From Candidatus Sulfotelmatobacter sp. (lineage in GTDB: Bacteria; Acidobacteriota; Terriglobia; Terriglobales; Acidobacteriaceae): a DNA stretch of 37,546 nucleotides. The position numbers and the translations under genes are program-made. The DNA is taken from contig JASHNX010000152.1 of the NCBI GenBank assembly GCA_030041415.1, forward strand, positions 1 to 37,546. The letters are read 5' to 3'. This document shows positions 10,295 to 22,143 of this stretch, one piece after another; position 1 is the stretch's first letter; each line of letters starts with the position of its first letter. Below the pieces are notes generated by a model. It searched no databases. It saw only the letters and a list, made by a program, of their open reading frames with translations, and was not told where the DNA came from.

Positions 10295-12163
10295 CTACGG
10301 CGCGGAGGGATTTTGCGCTTCGCCTTTCAGCCAGGCGGCGCGCTCGGCACGCTGGGTGCGAGTAATGTTCTCGAGATCCTTAAGATCGTAGGAAATTTCT
10401 TCACGGCTTCCGATTTTCCACTTCAAGTCCCGCTGACCATCGCGACGGCTTAGAACCTTCACGGTGATGGTATCGCCCGGACTGAGAGCCGAAACCGATT
10501 CCGCAGACTCCTGTCCGGGAGGGCCTCCGTTGATTTCAAGAATTGTGTCGCCGACCTGCAGGCCGGCAAGTTCAGCCGACCCGCCTGGATTAACCATGCT
10601 CACGATCATGGGCGCGTCGAAATTACGTGAAGCGCCGAACCCGGCATCGGGCACGGTATTGGTAGTCTCGACAAGGTGCAATCCGACCACGCGAAAAAAC
10701 TTATCCCACGGAATCTCGTCGGTTCCCGCGACATAATTCTGAAAAAACGATCGCAAATCCGCGTGGCTCACGCCTTCGGCAGCCTCGCGCACGCCATCGG
10801 AATCGGGGAAGAATCTGCCTTTTTTCGCATAATTCAGGTTCATCCATTGGAAGACCTCACGCAACGAAGCCTTGCCCCGGCTGGCTTCTCGGATATCGAG
10901 ATCGAGCAGAATCCCGAGCAATTCACCCTTGTTGTAATAGGAGATGCTGCGTTCGCCACGCCGGTAATACGGGTAGCCTTCAAGCCACGCATCAAGACTC
11001 GACTGCTCCGCTGATTGTGTGAGATGCGCGGGACGCCGCTGAAGTTCGGCAATATCTGCCGCCAATTCCTGTTCGAAGCGGCGCTCGTCGATCAAGCCCG
11101 CGCGAAGCTGGATGAAGTCAGCGGCCGTGCTGGTGCATCCCTCGCTGAACCACAAAGCGCGAGTGAAATTTTCTTTTGTGTAGTCAACCGGTTCGAGGCT
11201 TTGCGGGCGAATCCGCTTGACATTCCAGAGATGAAAGAATTCGTGCGCTGTAACCGAAGCGAGAATTTCCGGGTCGCGGGCGAGAGCGTCAGCGTTCAGA
11301 GAGATCGCCGTCGAGTAGGCGTGCTCCATGCCGCCGCCGGCAGGACCATGGGGAAAGTGGTAGATAAACATGTAATTAGTGAATGGACGGTCGTTCATCC
11401 ATGCGGTAGCGGCCGTGACAATCTTGTGAAGCATTGACGTGATCGCCTCTGCGTCATAGTCGCCCGGTTCGGAGTCGATGATCACACGATAATGCGCTCC
11501 GGATTCGTCGAAATCCAACTCCTGAAAATTGCTGATCTCAACCGGCGAATCAACCAGGCGATCGTAGTTCTCGGCGGTGTAGCGGCCATCGGCATCAGGG
11601 GTCAGCGGTGTAGCGATGTGCCACGACTGAGGAACCTGATCAAACCGCACACTCGTCGGCTGGTTGCGGCCGTCGAGGGGGTAGATGAGAATTTGGGCAA
11701 GATTGAAAAAAGCGTGATGTGAATTCAGTTGTGCTCCGAACGGACCGGGTGAATCGGCAAACATCTCGTATTCGACTATAGCTCCCTGTTGTGCGCCAGC
11801 GATTTGCCAGCGGCTGTCATTGATAGAACGCACCACAAGCGGGCGCCCGGCGCGATCTCTCGCGTGGATCCAATTCAAATACTGGGAGAAATCGCGAATT
11901 TGGTACAAAGCGTTCCATGTGGGGATTTGCATTTCGCGTTCTGGCGGTCCCTCGGGAAGAGTCATCTGAACCCGCACTAAGTGCTGCTCGGGATCGGCGA
12001 GGGTCACGTTGTAATTGGTGACTCCATAGCCGCGCGACGAAAAAACTACCCAGAAAATAAGGCAAAGCAAAAGATGATGTGCGGAGGGGCGACTCATGGA
12101 GCGCCAACGCGCCGAGCAAATAGCGCGACGTTCTGCGAAAGCGCTTGCGGAGGATGGTTTCAT
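10295..12163 (-). CDS. M61 family (glycyl aminopeptidase-like) metallopeptidase with PDZ domain
   Basis: 622 residues. A hydrophobic export segment (LLLCLIFWVVFSS) follows about 30 residues of basic leader, so it is exported or anchored. An N-terminal beta domain is followed by the gluzincin catalytic domain: GGGMEHAYST, then HEFFH at residues 307-311 with the glutamate of WFSEG as probable third zinc ligand. A PDZ domain lies near residues 510-590 (GGSAELAGLQVGDTILEING). This order is typical of M61 peptidases, which trim peptides in the periplasm. The start at 12163 overlaps the mpl stop by ATGA and I keep it for that reason; ATG 12097 gives a more standard signal peptide and may be the real one. 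Confidence 0.88.
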   Translation of the reverse strand: MKPSSASAFAERRAICSARWRSMSRPSAHHLLLCLIFWVVFSSRGYGVTNYNVTLADPEQHLVRVQMTLPEGPPEREMQIPTWNALYQIRDFSQYLNWIHARDRAGRPLVVRSINDSRWQIAGAQQGAIVEYEMFADSPGPFGAQLNSHHAFFNLAQILIYPLDGRNQPTSVRFDQVPQSWHIATPLTPDADGRYTAENYDRLVDSPVEISNFQELDFDESGAHYRVIIDSEPGDYDAEAITSMLHKIVTAATAWMNDRPFTNYMFIYHFPHGPAGGGMEHAYSTAISLNADALARDPEILASVTAHEFFHLWNVKRIRPQSLEPVDYTKENFTRALWFSEGCTSTAADFIQLRAGLIDERRFEQELAADIAELQRRPAHLTQSAEQSSLDAWLEGYPYYRRGERSISYYNKGELLGILLDLDIREASRGKASLREVFQWMNLNYAKKGRFFPDSDGVREAAEGVSHADLRSFFQNYVAGTDEIPWDKFFRVVGLHLVETTNTVPDAGFGASRNFDAPMIVSMVNPGGSAELAGLQVGDTILEINGGPPGQESAESVSALSPGDTITVKVLSRRDGQRDLKWKIGSREEISYDLKDLENITRTQRAERAAWLKGEAQNPSAP

Positions 12164-13629
12164 TTCGCCGCCGCGCTCGCCGAATTCAGATTTGCGTTCC
12201 CTGCCCTCGCTCTCAGTCGCGCCGGCAATTTTTCGTAGATTCCACCGAACCCTCCGTTGGAAAGGATTGCGACTATATCGCCGGAGCGCAGTTCTGGAAC
12301 AATCAAATCGACGATTGCGTCGGCGTCGGTGGCCAGGCGGGCGCGTCGGCCATGCTTCTGAACGTCAACAGCCAACTCCGCCAGATCGAGCCGCTCGTTT
12401 TCCGGCACGGCTTCAGAACGGAACACGCCGGCGACGACGATTTCATCCGCGAGGGCAAGGCTGCGCGCCAGGTCCGCTTGCAGCACGCGCCGCCGCAGCG
12501 TGTTCGAGCGCGGCTCGAGGATCGCCCACAACCGAGCGCCGGCATATCGCTCGCGTAACGCCTTCAACGTGCCCGCAATCGCTGTAGGATGATGGGCAAA
12601 ATCATCGATGATCGTAATGCCGTTCACTTGTGCCTTTACTTCGAGGCGGCGTTTGACACTTCGGAACGTCTTGAGTGCTTCTGCGATTTGTTCTGTTGAG
12701 ATGCCGCAAGCAAATGCCAAAGCGGCCGCCGCTGTCGCGTTCCAAACGTTGTATTCGCCCGCGAGAGAAAATTCAAAATCCATCCAGGGCTTCCCTTGAC
12801 GTACAACCGACCAAAACGTGCGATCAGGCTCGAACCTGAGATTAGCTATCCGCCAATTCGACCGCGGACCGGCGCCGTAGCGCTCGACTGGAGAAAATGA
12901 TTTTTTGAGGCAGCGTTCGAGGCTTGGACTCTCGGTAACATCTCCTGCGGCTCCATCGAACGCGATGATGCGTCCCCGCCGCGGCACGAGGTTTACCAGC
13001 CGTTTGAAGGCAGTTTCCACGGCATCGAGATCTTTGTAAATGTCGGCGTGGTCGAACTCAACCGAAGTGAGAATTACCGCATCGGGAAAGTAATGCAGAA
13101 ATTTCGGTCCCTTATCGAAAAACGCAGTATCGTATTCATCTCCTTCGATGATGAAATGCTTGCCCTCGCCAAGCTGAAAGCTGGAACCGAAATTCTCGGC
13201 GATGCCTCCGATCAGAAATGAAGGCTTCATTCCTGCGCTCTGAAAGATCCACGACAGCATGGAGGTGGTGGTGGTTTTTCCATGTGTCCCTGCTACAACC
13301 AGAACTTCTTTGCCGTGGAGGAATTCCTCATGCAACAACTGCGGCAGAGAACAGAATTCAATGCGCCGGTCGAGCACTTCCTCAAGTTCCGGATTGCCTC
13401 GAGAAATCGCATTGCCGATTACTACGAGGTCGGGGCGCGGATCAAGATTTTTCTGATCGAAAGGTTGCGCAACGGATATGCCCAGCCCTGCGAGAAAGTC
13501 GGACATCGGCGGGTACGCTGCCGCATCGGAACCGCTCACCTGAAAACCGCGCTCCTTCAGCATTCCCGCGAGAGAAGCCATGGCCGTTCCGCAGATGCCG
13601 ATCAAGTGAATGTGCTTCCTCGCGTGCAT
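12160..13629 (-). CDS. mpl: UDP-N-acetylmuramate:L-alanyl-gamma-D-glutamyl-meso-diaminopimelate ligase
   Basis: 489 residues, a Mur ligase. It begins KHIHLIGICGTAMASLAGML, the Mpl/MurC-type nucleotide start, and has the ATP P-loop GTHGKTTTT near residues 114-122. It then carries IIEGDEYDTAFFDKGPKFLH, a segment typical of Mpl rather than MurC, and the central domain motif SVEFDHADIY. The third domain holds IIDDFAHHPTAI and ILEPRSNTLRR. Mpl joins recycled murein tripeptide to UDP-MurNAc, saving new synthesis. Nearby are an S66 LD-carboxypeptidase, which makes tripeptide from tetrapeptide in the same recycling route, and a dapF homologue, so a murein recycling block is likely. The stop overlaps the M61 start. 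Confidence 0.93.
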   Translation of the reverse strand: MHARKHIHLIGICGTAMASLAGMLKERGFQVSGSDAAAYPPMSDFLAGLGISVAQPFDQKNLDPRPDLVVIGNAISRGNPELEEVLDRRIEFCSLPQLLHEEFLHGKEVLVVAGTHGKTTTTSMLSWIFQSAGMKPSFLIGGIAENFGSSFQLGEGKHFIIEGDEYDTAFFDKGPKFLHYFPDAVILTSVEFDHADIYKDLDAVETAFKRLVNLVPRRGRIIAFDGAAGDVTESPSLERCLKKSFSPVERYGAGPRSNWRIANLRFEPDRTFWSVVRQGKPWMDFEFSLAGEYNVWNATAAAALAFACGISTEQIAEALKTFRSVKRRLEVKAQVNGITIIDDFAHHPTAIAGTLKALRERYAGARLWAILEPRSNTLRRRVLQADLARSLALADEIVVAGVFRSEAVPENERLDLAELAVDVQKHGRRARLATDADAIVDLIVPELRSGDIVAILSNGGFGGIYEKLPARLRARAGNANLNSASAAAK

Positions 13630-13705: not shown

Positions 13706-14662
13706 CTAGGTGGAACGTGCAGTCACCGCCGATTCGAGAATTGTCAGACTCACCTGCGACCCGTGAACTCGCAATTCTGCAGCAACACCCATGGGCAAGG
13801 TGATGTTTCCGGCGGTCACGTGACCGGAGTGGAGGCCGTAAGCTACCGGAATGCCCAGGTCACCGACGATACGCACAACTACTTCTTCCAGCGTGTATCC
13901 CTGAGCCGCGGTCTGCACGCAATCTCGCATCTCGCCGAAGACAATCCCTTTTACATCGGTCAATTTTCCTGCCAGCTTCAACTGCATCAGCATGCGATCG
14001 ATCTGAAACGGCTTGGTAGCAACGTCTTCCAGGAAAAGTATCGTGCCTCGCGTGTCGATCTCATAACGGGTGCCAAGCGATGCCACCAGAATTGAAAGAC
14101 ACCCCCCATAGAGGATACCTTCGCCCCGGCCCTCAACCAAACCTTTCGCTCCGGAGTTCTCGCCAAGTTCCCAGCGCGCCGTGTCCCTCAGCGCGGCTTG
14201 CCATGAAACCATGTCGACGCCATCTTGATGCGCCCAGTCCTTAGCCACCATCGGACCATGGAAAGTGACGAGGCCGATCTTATCGGCGAAAGAGGTGAGC
14301 AGCGCAGTGAGGTCGCTGTAGCCGATGAAAATCTTGGGATGGGCCTTGATCTTCTCGAAATCCAGCCGATCGAGCAAGTAGTTAGAGCCGTACCCGCCGC
14401 GCGCACAAATGATTGCACGTACCTCGTCCCTCAAAAACATGTCTTCGAGTTCTTTCGCGCGCCGCTCGACCGATCCCGCGAAGTAAAGATCCTGCTCGAA
14501 AATGGAATCGAAATAGAAGGGATAATAGCCGGCGCGGCGCAGCGCTTCGCATCCGGCATCGAGTTCGGCACGTTTGACGTTGCTGGCCGGAGCGACGATG
14601 CCCACCGTGTCGCCAGCCTGAAGCGCAGACGGTTTGATGCGGGGACCTTTTAAGGAAGACAT
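13706..14662 (-). CDS. S66 family muramoyltetrapeptide LD-carboxypeptidase
   Basis: 318 residues, normal for LdcA. It opens with KPSALQAGDTVGIVAPAS, the family start. It shows RGGYGS at residues 88-93 and the nucleophile S116 in FIGYSDLTALL, equivalent to Ser115 of the Pseudomonas enzyme, then FHGPM. The catalytic glutamate is probably in ILFLEDVATKPFQIDRML, and the histidine in GLHSGHVTAGN near the C-terminus. The enzyme removes the terminal D-alanine of murein tetrapeptides in the cytoplasm, giving the tripeptide that Mpl ligates; mpl lies 76 bases downstream on the same strand. Related S66 proteins (MccF) cleave microcin C-type compounds, but the context favours recycling. No signal peptide. 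Confidence 0.9.
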   Translation of the reverse strand: MSSLKGPRIKPSALQAGDTVGIVAPASNVKRAELDAGCEALRRAGYYPFYFDSIFEQDLYFAGSVERRAKELEDMFLRDEVRAIICARGGYGSNYLLDRLDFEKIKAHPKIFIGYSDLTALLTSFADKIGLVTFHGPMVAKDWAHQDGVDMVSWQAALRDTARWELGENSGAKGLVEGRGEGILYGGCLSILVASLGTRYEIDTRGTILFLEDVATKPFQIDRMLMQLKLAGKLTDVKGIVFGEMRDCVQTAAQGYTLEEVVVRIVGDLGIPVAYGLHSGHVTAGNITLPMGVAAELRVHGSQVSLTILESAVTARST

Positions 14663-14744: not shown

Positions 14745-15575
14745 CTAGGTTAGAAAGAACTCTCCTGAACAAACCAACCGCGCTGAACCGCGAAGAAAAA
14801 TGCAATTCCCTTCTGTCCGCACGATCTGAATCCCGCCCGGAGTATGTACGCGCACCGGCGATTCGGCTCGCCTTGTCGTGATCGCAGCAACCGCCGACGC
14901 GCATGAACCCGTCCCCGAGGATTGCGTTTCTCCCACGCCTCGCTCGAAAAACCGCACGTCGATATCGTGCTTCCCATCAGCAATAACCATTTCCACGTTT
15001 ACGCCGTGGGGAAAATGCGAGTTGCGCTGAATGTTGGCCGCCTGCTCACGCCAGTTCGAAGCGAACTCCGGCACAAAAACAACATAGTGAGGATTCCCCA
15101 TCGAAACTGGAAGACCGCGCACTTCCTTTTTCTCCCGATTCCCTCCTTCGACAGTCAAACTGAGTTCCGGTGAAATCACCGCCTCACCCATCTCCGCCTC
15201 GAACTCATAGCCAGAATCATTTCTGGCCATCAGCCTACAGATTTTCAGTCCAGCTCCGGTCTGAATCGAGACCATTTCTTTTTTTCGTTCGGCGCATAGA
15301 TACGCTGCGACGCAGCGCGTGCCGTTGCCGGAGATTTCGGCCTCGGAGCCGTCGTTATTAATCAACCGAATCTCAACATCAGCAGTCGAGTGCGGGTAAA
15401 TCCACTCCACGCCATCGGCGCCGACGCCGTTGTGGCGATCGCAAATTTGAACGGTCAATTCTGACAAGTCTTTGGGAGACGGTTTTCCATGGATCGCCGC
15501 CCCCTCAATCAGAAGGAAATCGTTTCCGCAGGCGCAGGCCTTGACGAACGGGATGGAGACCACAGAAGAGATCAC
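14745..15575 (-). CDS. dapF: Diaminopimelate epimerase homologue with both catalytic cysteines replaced by serine
   Basis: 276 residues, standard DapF length and architecture: N-terminal IPFVKACACGNDF, RHNGVGADGVEW, the substrate loop NNDGSEAEISGNGTRC, MGNPHYVVFV, HGVNVEMV, and FFERGVGETQSSGTGSC. In known DapF enzymes two cysteines (73 and 217) act as acid and base, in CGNG and ACGTG. Here they are S82 (TCC, 15330-15332) and S220 (TCG, 14916-14918). Every other motif is intact, so this is not decay. It may be a serine-type subfamily, or an enzyme of altered substrate or low activity. The start is GTG 15575, overlapping the stop of the 60-codon gene (GTGA); GTG 15563 is the alternative. Expected role: LL- to meso-diaminopimelate for murein and lysine. 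Confidence 0.85.
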   Translation of the reverse strand: MISSVVSIPFVKACACGNDFLLIEGAAIHGKPSPKDLSELTVQICDRHNGVGADGVEWIYPHSTADVEIRLINNDGSEAEISGNGTRCVAAYLCAERKKEMVSIQTGAGLKICRLMARNDSGYEFEAEMGEAVISPELSLTVEGGNREKKEVRGLPVSMGNPHYVVFVPEFASNWREQAANIQRNSHFPHGVNVEMVIADGKHDIDVRFFERGVGETQSSGTGSCASAVAAITTRRAESPVRVHTPGGIQIVRTEGNCIFLRGSARLVCSGEFFLT

Positions 15576-15754
15576 TCGAGTTCCACCGGTCCCAGGGAAG
15601 TTACGCCGGCGAGACGCATCGAGGATTTGAGTGCGTGGAACAATTCCTTCTGCTCGCGATTGCGGCCCGAGACATCGAACTGCATTCGCACGTGCTGACC
15701 GGATTTTATCATTCGCAGAATGGCGCCTGGATAACCTCGTGCGTTAACCGGCAT
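15572..15754 (-). CDS. Small 60-residue protein coupled to dapF, unknown function
   Basis: A 60-codon gene that fills exactly the space between the glycosyltransferase and dapF. Its ATG at 15754-15752 comes two bases after the glycosyltransferase stop (TAATCATG), and its TGA overlaps the dapF GTG start. The protein begins MPVNARGYPGAILRMIKSGQ, is basic at the start, contains FDVSGRNREQKELFHALK, and ends GVTSLGPVELE. It has no signal peptide, membrane segment or cysteine. Codon choice is GC-ending and coding-like. I do not recognise a family. The tight coupling on both sides argues it is translated and may act with DapF or just carry ribosomes into dapF. Confidence 0.6.
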   Translation of the reverse strand: MPVNARGYPGAILRMIKSGQHVRMQFDVSGRNREQKELFHALKSSMRLAGVTSLGPVELE

Positions 15755-15756
15755 GA

Positions 15757-17499
15757 TTACCGCGATTGCGTGTCTCGACGTCGGTCGTTCTGCTGTTTTG
15801 CGCCTTGAAATATTGCTGCTGCCGGCTGGCCCGAAGTATGAATTTCGACCAGAGCCGTGAGATGGCCAGCTTTTGCCGCGGCCCAGACTGGATCGCCTTC
15901 GAATCCGACTGCGTAGTTGGCGTAGGCTGCGGGATCCGCCAGGGCGCGCTCCCACAATCCCTGGGCATCGTAGGGCTCTTTCCACACACGGTGATTGCCC
16001 TCATTGATCACGCGGCGTAAAGGGATGCCCGCCTCTTCGAACGCGCCCGAGTGCTCGCCCAGATACATGAGAAACGTGCAGTCCGGAGGGAAGGACATGA
16101 ACCATTTCGCCAACTGATCTTCCAGCGCAATGCGGCCGCGATTGTTGATGAAGGCTTCTCGATAGCAGATTGGCTGATCGCGCCAGATGAGAGCATAATT
16201 TGTTGCTCCAAGAGCGAGAACGATTACAAAAGCTGCCAAGCCCTGCCATGGCTGCCGGGAAAATTTCAGGCGTGGAATCCTGGCGGCCGATCGCACCAAA
16301 AGAGAAACGGCGACCGGCACGAAGACGGCAAATACCGGAAGCAGTTCCAAACCATAGCGAACGTTGTATCGGGAAAACGGCCACCAGGTCGGAACAAAAA
16401 TAGGGATGCTCCCGTAAGCCACGCATAACGCGTAAAACGGCAGAGGAATCCAAAGCAGCAGCAAGATGCGGGCGCCGGCAAACACCGCTACGAAGCTGCC
16501 AATTACAGCAAGAAGCAACCAAAGTCTTCCCTGCCAGTCTGCGTCACCGACATTCAGTTCAGCAGCTTTCAGGAAATACGAGGCCGCCGCATAAAGATTT
16601 GCCTTCGCAGGATTTATTGTTGAGGTTTTTTGCTCGATCGACTTGGCGGAATATGGCCCGTTGGCGAATTCCAGAGGATTGCGATAGATGGCAGCATTGT
16701 AGGCGAGCCACACAAGCGGAGCTGCGGAAGCAATAAGAATAAACTTGATGAGGGCAGTTCGAGGGAACGCCGATGACTTCTGGTGCGACTCGCCATCGAA
16801 CTTCTGTCGTCTGAAAAACATTACGACCGCCACGACGATCAGCACGGCCGCGAGAAACCATCCGTCATAGCGAGTCAGGCAGGCTGCAGCCACGCAGAAA
16901 CCGGATTTTGTGAGCAAGCTCGCGTTTTTCCCAGCGCTCGTGTTCCCAGCACTGGTATTCTCGGCGTCCGCATTCCGTGCGCCAACAAACTCGGCAAAAT
17001 ACACGAGCGCCCAAATGAAGAAGGCGAGATACTGCGCTTCGCCCATCGCCGTGGCCTGCAGGTAAATCAGATTGGGATTTGCGCAATACAGAATGGCTGC
17101 AGCCCAGGCGATGACCTTCGACGAGGCAGCGCTCTCACCATCCCCAACCAGCGCGGTTCGCACAAGGCGAAAAATTCCCAGCACACTCAGAATGTAGGCT
17201 GCCATTGATGGAATCGATCCGCCCGTTCCGCTCTGCCAGAGCCTCATGGGAACGATAAACGGCAGCATCAGCAAGTGCGGCAACGGAAGCCAAACGGTTC
17301 CCAGTTGCAACAGGCCGGGGGTTTGCGAATCAAAGATTCGGCGCGCGATGTTGATGTGGGCGACAGCATCGCCGTAGAGCAGGATATCGCCGTGGCGCTC
17401 GTAGTAGAGAAACGAAAAAACCGAAACAAACGCAGCTAGCCAGACCAGCCGCACGGCTTCAATTTCGGAATATCTTTGCGGCTGGCTTCGAGACTTCAT
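15757..17499 (-). CDS. Polytopic membrane glycosyltransferase (GT-C / GT39-like)
   Basis: 580 residues with about ten hydrophobic segments over the first 430 residues (for example LVWLAAFVSVFSFLYY, AAVLIVVAVVMFF, ILLLLWIPLPFYALCVAYG) and a soluble C-terminal part of about 140 residues. The first periplasmic loop has DILLYGDAVAHINIARRI, with acidic residues where GT-C enzymes keep their catalytic Asp/Glu. The family moves sugars from polyprenyl-phosphate donors on the periplasmic face; acceptor and donor here are unknown. Loop residues near 177-192 hold an NTSAGNTSAGKN tandem, a recent 15-base duplication by the look of the DNA. The ATG start overlaps the PfkB stop (ATGA), and the stop lies 2 bases before the 60-codon gene. 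Confidence 0.75.
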   Translation of the reverse strand: MKSRSQPQRYSEIEAVRLVWLAAFVSVFSFLYYERHGDILLYGDAVAHINIARRIFDSQTPGLLQLGTVWLPLPHLLMLPFIVPMRLWQSGTGGSIPSMAAYILSVLGIFRLVRTALVGDGESAASSKVIAWAAAILYCANPNLIYLQATAMGEAQYLAFFIWALVYFAEFVGARNADAENTSAGNTSAGKNASLLTKSGFCVAAACLTRYDGWFLAAVLIVVAVVMFFRRQKFDGESHQKSSAFPRTALIKFILIASAAPLVWLAYNAAIYRNPLEFANGPYSAKSIEQKTSTINPAKANLYAAASYFLKAAELNVGDADWQGRLWLLLAVIGSFVAVFAGARILLLLWIPLPFYALCVAYGSIPIFVPTWWPFSRYNVRYGLELLPVFAVFVPVAVSLLVRSAARIPRLKFSRQPWQGLAAFVIVLALGATNYALIWRDQPICYREAFINNRGRIALEDQLAKWFMSFPPDCTFLMYLGEHSGAFEEAGIPLRRVINEGNHRVWKEPYDAQGLWERALADPAAYANYAVGFEGDPVWAAAKAGHLTALVEIHTSGQPAAAIFQGAKQQNDRRRDTQSR

Positions 17500-21013: not shown

Positions 21014-21096
21014 AGCTATCAAGAAAGAGTCTATCTTGTTTCTCTGGCCAGCAGAACGCCCCGGTTTCCCGAGTGGCGTTTGATATTCTCTCTGCC

Positions 21097-22143
21097 ATGG
21101 ATGCCATTGCGCTGACGCGGCAACTGGTTGATATCGAATCGATCACCGGCAACGAAGCCGAAGTGAGTGAATTTCTTTTCCATGAACTCAGTCGGCTTGG
21201 CTATCGGTGCGAGAAGATGGCCGTCGAAAACAATCGATCCAATGTGTATGCCGTTTCTCCAGAGGAGCCGAGACCGAACGTGGTCTTCTCGACGCACATG
21301 GATACGGTGCCTCCCTTCATCCCGTCCTCTGAAGATGAGACGCGAATCCATGGCCGGGGATCGTGCGATGCAAAAGGGATCATCGCCGCTCAGATCGCCG
21401 CCGCGGAACATCTGCGGGGGGAAGAAATCTACGTCGGCCTACTTTTCGTCGTGGGGGAGGAACGCGACAGCCTGGGCGCGAAAATCGCGAACGATTACGC
21501 GGCGAGGGAATTTTCTGGCAATCATGAACCGGACAATCGGAAATCTTCGCGCTCGCGGAGATATCTTGTAAACGGCGAGCCGACAGAAAATCGCATCGCG
21601 CTGGCCTCCAAAGGATCTTTGCGAGCGGAAGTGACGGCTTCCGGGCGCATGGCGCATTCGGCGTACCCCGAACTGGGAGAGTCCGCAATCGATAAACTGA
21701 TTCCTGCACTGGCTAGGTTGCGCGAGATGCCGCTGCCGAGCGACCCTGAAATTGGCCCGTGCACCTTGAATATCGGATTGATCGAGGGCGGGCGGGCTCC
21801 CAACGTGATTCCCGACTACGCTCACGCAGATCTGGTTTACCGGCTGATTGGACCCACGGCAAAGCTTCGCGAGGAAATTGTGAAAACAGCGGGAGAAGAC
21901 GTAAAGGTAGAATTCCCATTGGAGCTGCCGTTTATGCGGCTAGGCAAGGTTGATGGGCTTCCCACCATGATCGCCGCATTCACCACGGATATTCCAAGGC
22001 TTACGAACTGGGGCGAGCCGCTTCTTATTGGGCCGGGATCCATCCATGTGGCTCACACAGAGAGCGAATTCATCGAGAAAGCGCAACTGGCCGAAGCGAT
22101 TGCTTTGTACTCCAGGATCGCGAAGCGGCTGGTTCAGGCTTGA
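21097..22143 (+). CDS. M20 family metallopeptidase (ArgE/DapE/CPG2-like)
   Basis: 348 residues from ATG 21097; an in-frame GTG at 21073 is less likely. All zinc-site motifs are present: FSTHMDTVPP, GRGSCDAKG, VVGEERDSLGA (catalytic Glu pair), LVNGEPTENR, and HVAHTESEFIE near the C-terminus. The lid domain follows LRAEVTASGRMAHSAYPELG. Members hydrolyse acyl-amino acids or small peptides; ArgE-, DapE- and dipeptidase-like members look alike, so the substrate is open. Odd point: between ANDY and RYLVNGEP there are about 15 extra basic/polar residues (AREFSGNHEPDNRKSS) compared with what I expect, perhaps a surface-loop insertion. The cytoplasmic location fits the lack of a signal peptide. Confidence 0.85.
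   Translation: MDAIALTRQLVDIESITGNEAEVSEFLFHELSRLGYRCEKMAVENNRSNVYAVSPEEPRPNVVFSTHMDTVPPFIPSSEDETRIHGRGSCDAKGIIAAQIAAAEHLRGEEIYVGLLFVVGEERDSLGAKIANDYAAREFSGNHEPDNRKSSRSRRYLVNGEPTENRIALASKGSLRAEVTASGRMAHSAYPELGESAIDKLIPALARLREMPLPSDPEIGPCTLNIGLIEGGRAPNVIPDYAHADLVYRLIGPTAKLREEIVKTAGEDVKVEFPLELPFMRLGKVDGLPTMIAAFTTDIPRLTNWGEPLLIGPGSIHVAHTESEFIEKAQLAEAIALYSRIAKRLVQA

Follow-up and report, generated by a model that had tools for sequence, protein, structure and literature searches.

A DapF homologue from Acidobacteriota with serine in place of both catalytic cysteines, a probable serine-type diaminopimelate epimerase

The gene and its product

DapF, the LL-/meso-diaminopimelate (DAP) epimerase, is the standard example of an epimerase with two catalytic cysteines, and a target for drugs. 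This article concerns a DapF homologue that has neither cysteine. It is encoded in a stretch of 37,546 nucleotides from Candidatus Sulfotelmatobacter sp. (contig JASHNX010000152.1 of assembly GCA_030041415.1, positions 1 to 37,546 of the forward strand), which we call the window. The gene and the two codons at issue are as follows.

14745..15575, minus strand: dapF homologue of the Ser/Ser type, 276 amino acids (from translation and profile matches)
15330..15332, minus strand: codon TCC, Ser82, at the place of Escherichia coli Cys73; abuts the start of model helix 83-97
14916..14918, minus strand: codon TCG, Ser220, at the place of E. coli Cys217; abuts the start of model helix 221-233

Positions 14745-15575 translate as one open frame, with the motifs ISGNGTRC and ETQSSGTGSC. 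Alignment with DapF of E. coli K-12 sets Ser82 at Cys73 and Ser220 at Cys217, and the catalytic Cys/Cys pair is absent. The original prediction, made from the letters alone, had the coordinates, the codons and both changes exactly right. The protein scores 201.6 bits against TIGR00652, the NCBIfam equivalog model for DapF (cut-off 114.65), and 150.4 bits against PF01678, the Pfam DAP_epimerase family (cut-off 34.7). A Pfam scan (E <= 0.01) returned DAP_epimerase alone, with no match to the proline racemase/hydroxyproline epimerase family. The two-domain DapF fold is predicted across the full length of the protein, and solved structures of the proline racemase family gave lower Z scores against the model, 24.0 to 28.3 among the 50 best matches listed.

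By alignment, residues N18, N73, G83, N84, R87 and N161 of the window protein are N11, N64, G74, N75, R78 and N157 of the E. coli enzyme, and N193, E211, R212, T217 and G221 are its N190, E208, R209, T214 and G218. The prediction had held that motifs and length were otherwise intact; the protein is indeed full-length and the other motif residues are present, with the exception of E. coli Gln44, which is Gly55 here and glycine likewise in all 16 non-Ser/Ser rows from the phylum. The PROSITE signature of DapF is N-x-(DN)-(GS)-(SENGFT)-x(4)-C-(GI)-N-(GA)-x-R (PMC8225329); residues 73-87, compared with it by eye, fail solely at the cysteine, where Ser82 stands. The distal part of DAP is contacted in the Haemophilus influenzae enzyme by Asn64, Asn157, Asn190, Glu208, Arg209 and Gln44 (PMC8225329). 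In the window protein these contacts are Asn73, Asn161, Asn193, Glu211 and Arg212, and all five are invariant in two alignments (97/97 and 99/99 rows).

A serine-type subfamily

How far does the pair of serines extend? Throughout, the class is Terriglobia and the phylum Acidobacteriota, both assigned from the nearest named relatives, which are four loci of Candidatus Sulfotelmatobacter; identity is 84 and 82% for the closest two. A search of the class with the window protein found a match in 220 of 299 genomes (E <= 1e-10), and every class gene read, the window gene included, has the Ser/Ser pair (149/149), far more often than chance would allow. Those 149 rows are best-scoring places (the window gene, L016-L044, L075-L094 and L222-L320, with G144, at a contig edge, left out); lower-scoring class matches and the 79 matchless genomes lie outside them. 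In the phylum as a whole, a DapF-family match of either kind turned up in 386 of 395 genomes. The 124 phylum rows that were aligned divide into 107 Ser/Ser, 16 Cys/Cys and one Cys/Ser, a split that is not a frequency because the rows were chosen by score and family, about one per family.

Seventy-five Ser/Ser proteins, drawn from many families in the phylum, group on a single branch, with a support of 99 in the Shimodaira-Hasegawa-like approximate likelihood ratio test (SH-aLRT). The tree has 119 rows and was computed without the two trait columns; it left out 15 named rows (fragments and duplicates), rows shorter than 225 amino acids and near-copies (60% identity for Ser/Ser rows, 80% for others). 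The branch is separate from the DapFs of E. coli, Bacillota, Bacteroidota and Actinomycetota, and also from the Cys/Cys lineage of other families in the phylum. Four further Ser/Ser rows (L196, L103, L105 and L072) are placed outside it. The approximately unbiased (AU) test does not reject a tree that places all 79 in a single clade (p-AU 0.959), and the constrained tree outscored the free quick tree. Outside the phylum, our sample held no Ser/Ser protein: E. coli and the eight of 109 matching plasmid records that were read (Bacillota, Bacteroidota and Actinomycetota) are Cys/Cys in 9/9 cases, and of six matches in a viral collection four are Cys/Cys and two, near-identical to each other, are Cys/Ser. 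A serine-type DapF subfamily, which takes in all the class genes read and reaches across many of the phylum's families, is real at the level of sequence. The prediction had offered such a subfamily as one explanation and proposed an alignment across Acidobacteriota to see whether the pair is clade-wide; on both counts it is well supported. The titles and abstract openings of the open-access literature that we searched contain no description of a serine-type DapF.

Two sets of unusual homologues came to light along the way. A second, highly divergent Ser/Ser group (L196, L174/L201 and L172, from G491, G027 and G458; L172 is partial) has the motifs SGNGLTIFSQ and SSGSSATA and is without the usual arginine after the first motif. 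The mixed Cys/Ser homologues L107 (G304) and L216/L217 (viral collection) keep the first catalytic cysteine alone.

The pair is also held in place by selection. When the window gene is compared with its two closest relatives, the ratio of nonsynonymous to synonymous substitution rates (dN/dS, Nei-Gojobori) comes to about 0.11 and 0.15, from which we judge the selection on the Ser/Ser gene to be purifying. Among 227 Ser/Ser rows (with a few duplicate fetches), TCN codons outnumber AGY codons by 191 to 36 at S82 and by 214 to 13 at S220; the tree requires at least five switches between serine codon families at S82 and at least three at S220. TCN and AGY lie more than one base apart, so serine kept through these switches indicates constraint. 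A source genome in 350 contigs, and an adjacent MgtC-family gene that is mostly missing, might invite the thought of a sequencing, assembly or mutation artefact, or of a decaying pseudogene, but a pair present in 149/149 class genes read, a low dN/dS and an intact frame make that vanishingly improbable, and class-wide conservation rules it out. The same facts bear out the prediction's phrase that the replacement had come without decay. In three class genomes (G085, G246 and G266), one stop falls within the matched stretch; the aligned parts keep the Ser/Ser pair.

The only recognised candidate

The prediction would have fallen had a Cys/Cys DapF lain elsewhere in the same genome together with no activity of this one. 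We looked for such a gene and found none: the window gene is the only PF01678 gene found in its genome. Ddh is an alternative way to meso-DAP and is unrelated to DapF. At E <= 1e-5 its model, TIGR01921, matched none of 56 Ser/Ser genomes, the window's own included; the search was positive in the control, Corynebacterium glutamicum, and Ddh exceeded the cut-off in two of 80 genomes, both of them Cys/Cys carriers. A single DapF-family match was found in 54 of the 56 Ser/Ser genomes and two in G351 and G584, at thresholds of 1e-10 (class) and 1e-5 (phylum) that may miss highly divergent copies. The substrate of LysA is meso-DAP, and LysA is over its cut-off in 41 of the 56, among them 22 of the 23 class genomes. 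One DapF-family gene, no Ddh and a LysA together leave the Ser/Ser protein, as far as annotation by profiles goes, as the one known candidate source of meso-DAP in most of the Ser/Ser genomes checked.

Proposed catalysis without cysteine

Set beside the classical enzymes (TIGR00652; E. coli, H. influenzae, Anabaena 9mro and Arabidopsis 3ejx), the window protein shares their fold, length and DAP contacts, the placing of the catalytic positions at helix N-termini, and DAP-handling gene neighbours. It differs in the catalytic cysteines, both of which are serine, with the signature cysteine missing. The proline racemase superfamily has a similar fold and natural examples of serine replacing a catalytic cysteine, in another family and for another substrate. 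In its Ser/Cys 4-hydroxyproline 2-epimerase and Ser/Thr trans-3-hydroxyproline dehydratase, serine is given a catalytic role, and the superfamily as described in the excerpts of PMC4113996 includes no natural Ser/Ser pair. Serine stands at one matching position in H. influenzae DapF C73S (2q9h) and C217S (2q9j), in HisR C67S and C209S, and in PddB C101S and C233S. Those engineered proteins are laboratory single mutants, whereas the pair in the window is natural, double and conserved.

We think it probable, going by sequence, that the window gene encodes the bacterium's LL-DAP/meso-DAP epimerase and that it belongs to a Ser/Ser DapF subfamily old in the phylum. How might two serines do the work of two cysteines? 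The tuning of the thiols in DapF is ascribed to domain closure together with helix ends and backbone amides (PMC12039745), and the helix ends are retained in the structure model of the window protein. In a closed, dry pocket, the pKa of serine would be lowered by the end of a helix and by backbone amides; one serine would then take the alpha-proton and the other return one from the opposite face. We infer these roles of acid and base. A bolder statement, on which we are evenly divided, is that this is a natural, cofactor-free two-serine epimerase without a catalytic cysteine, fixed early as the normal DapF of Acidobacteriota, and that thiol chemistry is dispensable for DapF catalysis.

Aziridino-DAP inhibitors bind covalently to the cysteines of DapF (PMC12039745). 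Should much of a phylum indeed rely on serines for this reaction, then the usual explanation for cysteine falls short, DapF inhibitors directed at thiols would be expected to spare Ser/Ser bacteria, and the difference is masked by family models that label the Ser/Ser protein simply DapF.

Several results weigh against a serine epimerase, beginning with the chemistry. Single Cys-to-Ser changes nearly abolish the activity of PddB (PMC8225329) and greatly reduce that of HisR (PMC11602996), and a review has cysteine favoured over serine for its lower pKa and easier desolvation (PMC8142540). Near the two serines, a search that omitted 25 named divergent, partial or duplicate rows found no extra acid or base specific to Ser/Ser proteins except Ser219. 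Serine occupies this place beside Ser220 in 191 of 206 main-group rows, and alanine occupies it in nine of ten outside Cys/Cys rows; our guess is that Ser219 may help to polarise Ser220. Gene content has its own gaps. LysA is under the cut-off or absent in 15 of the 56 Ser/Ser genomes (five with a long match below the cut-off, ten with none or a weak one), and the window's own assembly, 95.56% complete, is the sole class Ser/Ser genome tested without LysA over the cut-off. DapL as a source of LL-DAP did not emerge: TIGR03542 gave nothing over its cut-off in the window's own genome, and TIGR03540 gave none in any of 58 genomes. The class genomes without DapF, and the genomes with two kinds of it, belong on the same side of the balance and are taken up below.

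Class genomes without DapF

The 79 of 299 class genomes in which the window protein found no match include 52 of the 240 good ones. Twenty matchless genomes are named: 14 from family f7, three from f4, two from f5 and one from f1. None of the 14 f7 genomes matches the Ser/Ser alignment at E <= 1, and their highest score with PF01678, 22.4 bits in G081, falls short of the cut-off of 34.7. Six f7 genomes (G005, G014, G022, G030, G058 and G064) have Ddh in 0/6, LysA over its cut-off in 6/6 and mpl in 5/6. LysA without DapF or Ddh implies, on gene content, that an unrecognised route to meso-DAP exists in the f7 genomes; that route might be present in Ser/Ser genomes too. Comparison of ten lysA neighbourhoods (nine from DapF-free genomes and one from the Ser/Ser genome G054) gave nothing suggestive, nor did a scan of the genes flanking lysA at two f7 loci and in G054.

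These genomes lend substance to an account that we hold unlikely, in which the Ser/Ser protein no longer epimerises DAP, having taken up a regulatory, binding or slow side role, and a non-homologous, unrecognised enzyme makes meso-DAP throughout the class. The near-inactivity of the laboratory mutants of its relatives points the same way. It has to contend with purifying selection, with the invariance of both serines and of all the DAP contacts tested, with a second enzyme for which no candidate was found, and with a phylum in which 386 of 395 genomes retain a DapF-family gene. Should the Ser/Ser protein prove inactive, an unrecognised meso-DAP route must exist in a major soil phylum. The prediction had itself allowed for dependence on another epimerisation route. 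Nothing in the Ser/Ser genomes presents itself for that part (no second PF01678 gene in the window's genome, Ddh in 0/56), but some class members do have LysA without DapF or Ddh. The open-access literature that we searched, including the excerpts of PMC6403190, held nothing usable on the cell-wall composition of Acidobacteriota.

Substrate, paralogues and neighbours

A changed substrate, another suggestion of the prediction, has become less likely because the distal DAP contacts are invariant; PddB, which is related to DapF but acts on a new substrate, has other residues at the corresponding Asn and Arg positions (PMC8225329). A version of it deserves a hearing all the same: an active two-serine racemase or dehydratase for another diamino acid, or for a recycled form of DAP from peptidoglycan turnover, in place of free LL-DAP. 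We rate this quite unlikely, given that the distal-carboxylate contacts lost by PddB are retained and that 54 of 56 Ser/Ser genomes have no other DapF-family match. There is precedent for it in a Fusobacterium protein annotated as DapF that proved to be a histidine racemase (PMC11602996), and it could draw on genomes in which the two kinds coexist. Eight genomes of family f35 pair a divergent Ser/Ser copy with a further DapF-family gene, which is Cys/Cys in both genomes where it was read (G479 and G504), and G429 and G562 have one Ser/Ser and one Cys/Cys gene each. In four f35 genomes without a Ser/Ser match (G322, G332, G376 and G446), the DapF-family gene read is Cys/Cys. The Ser/Ser copy may do something else where it has a Cys/Cys partner, and the divergent f35 copies are possible paralogues with another substrate. 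Of those copies (L103, L153-L159 and L161), several have SGDG or GSSS motifs; the Cys/Cys partners read are L197 and L198.

The neighbours of the window gene speak for this alternative too, since in f1 they are recycling genes.

13706..14662, minus strand: LD-carboxypeptidase (Peptidase_S66, LdcA type), the next gene downstream of dapF
12160..13629, minus strand: mpl, UDP-MurNAc:L-Ala-gamma-D-Glu-meso-DAP ligase (TIGR01081, 463.8 bits; cut-off 388.7)
15572..15985, minus strand: 137-amino-acid remnant open reading frame of an MgtC-family gene; its stop and the dapF start share 4 bases

LdcA and Mpl are peptidoglycan recycling enzymes that act on DAP-containing muropeptides. Homologues of both lie on the dapF strand at all 19 f1-type loci checked (L003-L006, L016-L029 and L033), which were scored for strand. 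They are missing from the flanks (about 1.5 kb) of most loci of other families; mpl is over its cut-off in 26 of the 41 Ser/Ser genomes tested.

Upstream, the MgtC remnant sits between a membrane-protein gene and dapF. The prediction had called dapF translationally coupled within an operon; the 4-base overlap (GTGA) exists, but the partner is this remnant reading frame, and the GTG start is putative. L003 has at the same place a 252-amino-acid reading frame with an MgtC domain, and this longer gene overlaps dapF by the same 4 bases; L004 has similar DNA. The window is short of about 600 bases of the MgtC-family gene, through a real deletion or through assembly. Farther off, on the plus strand at 21073-22143, lies an M20-type hydrolase whose nearest models are DapE-like, with scores far under the cut-offs (best 128.7 of 304.2 bits); it is a possible DapE.
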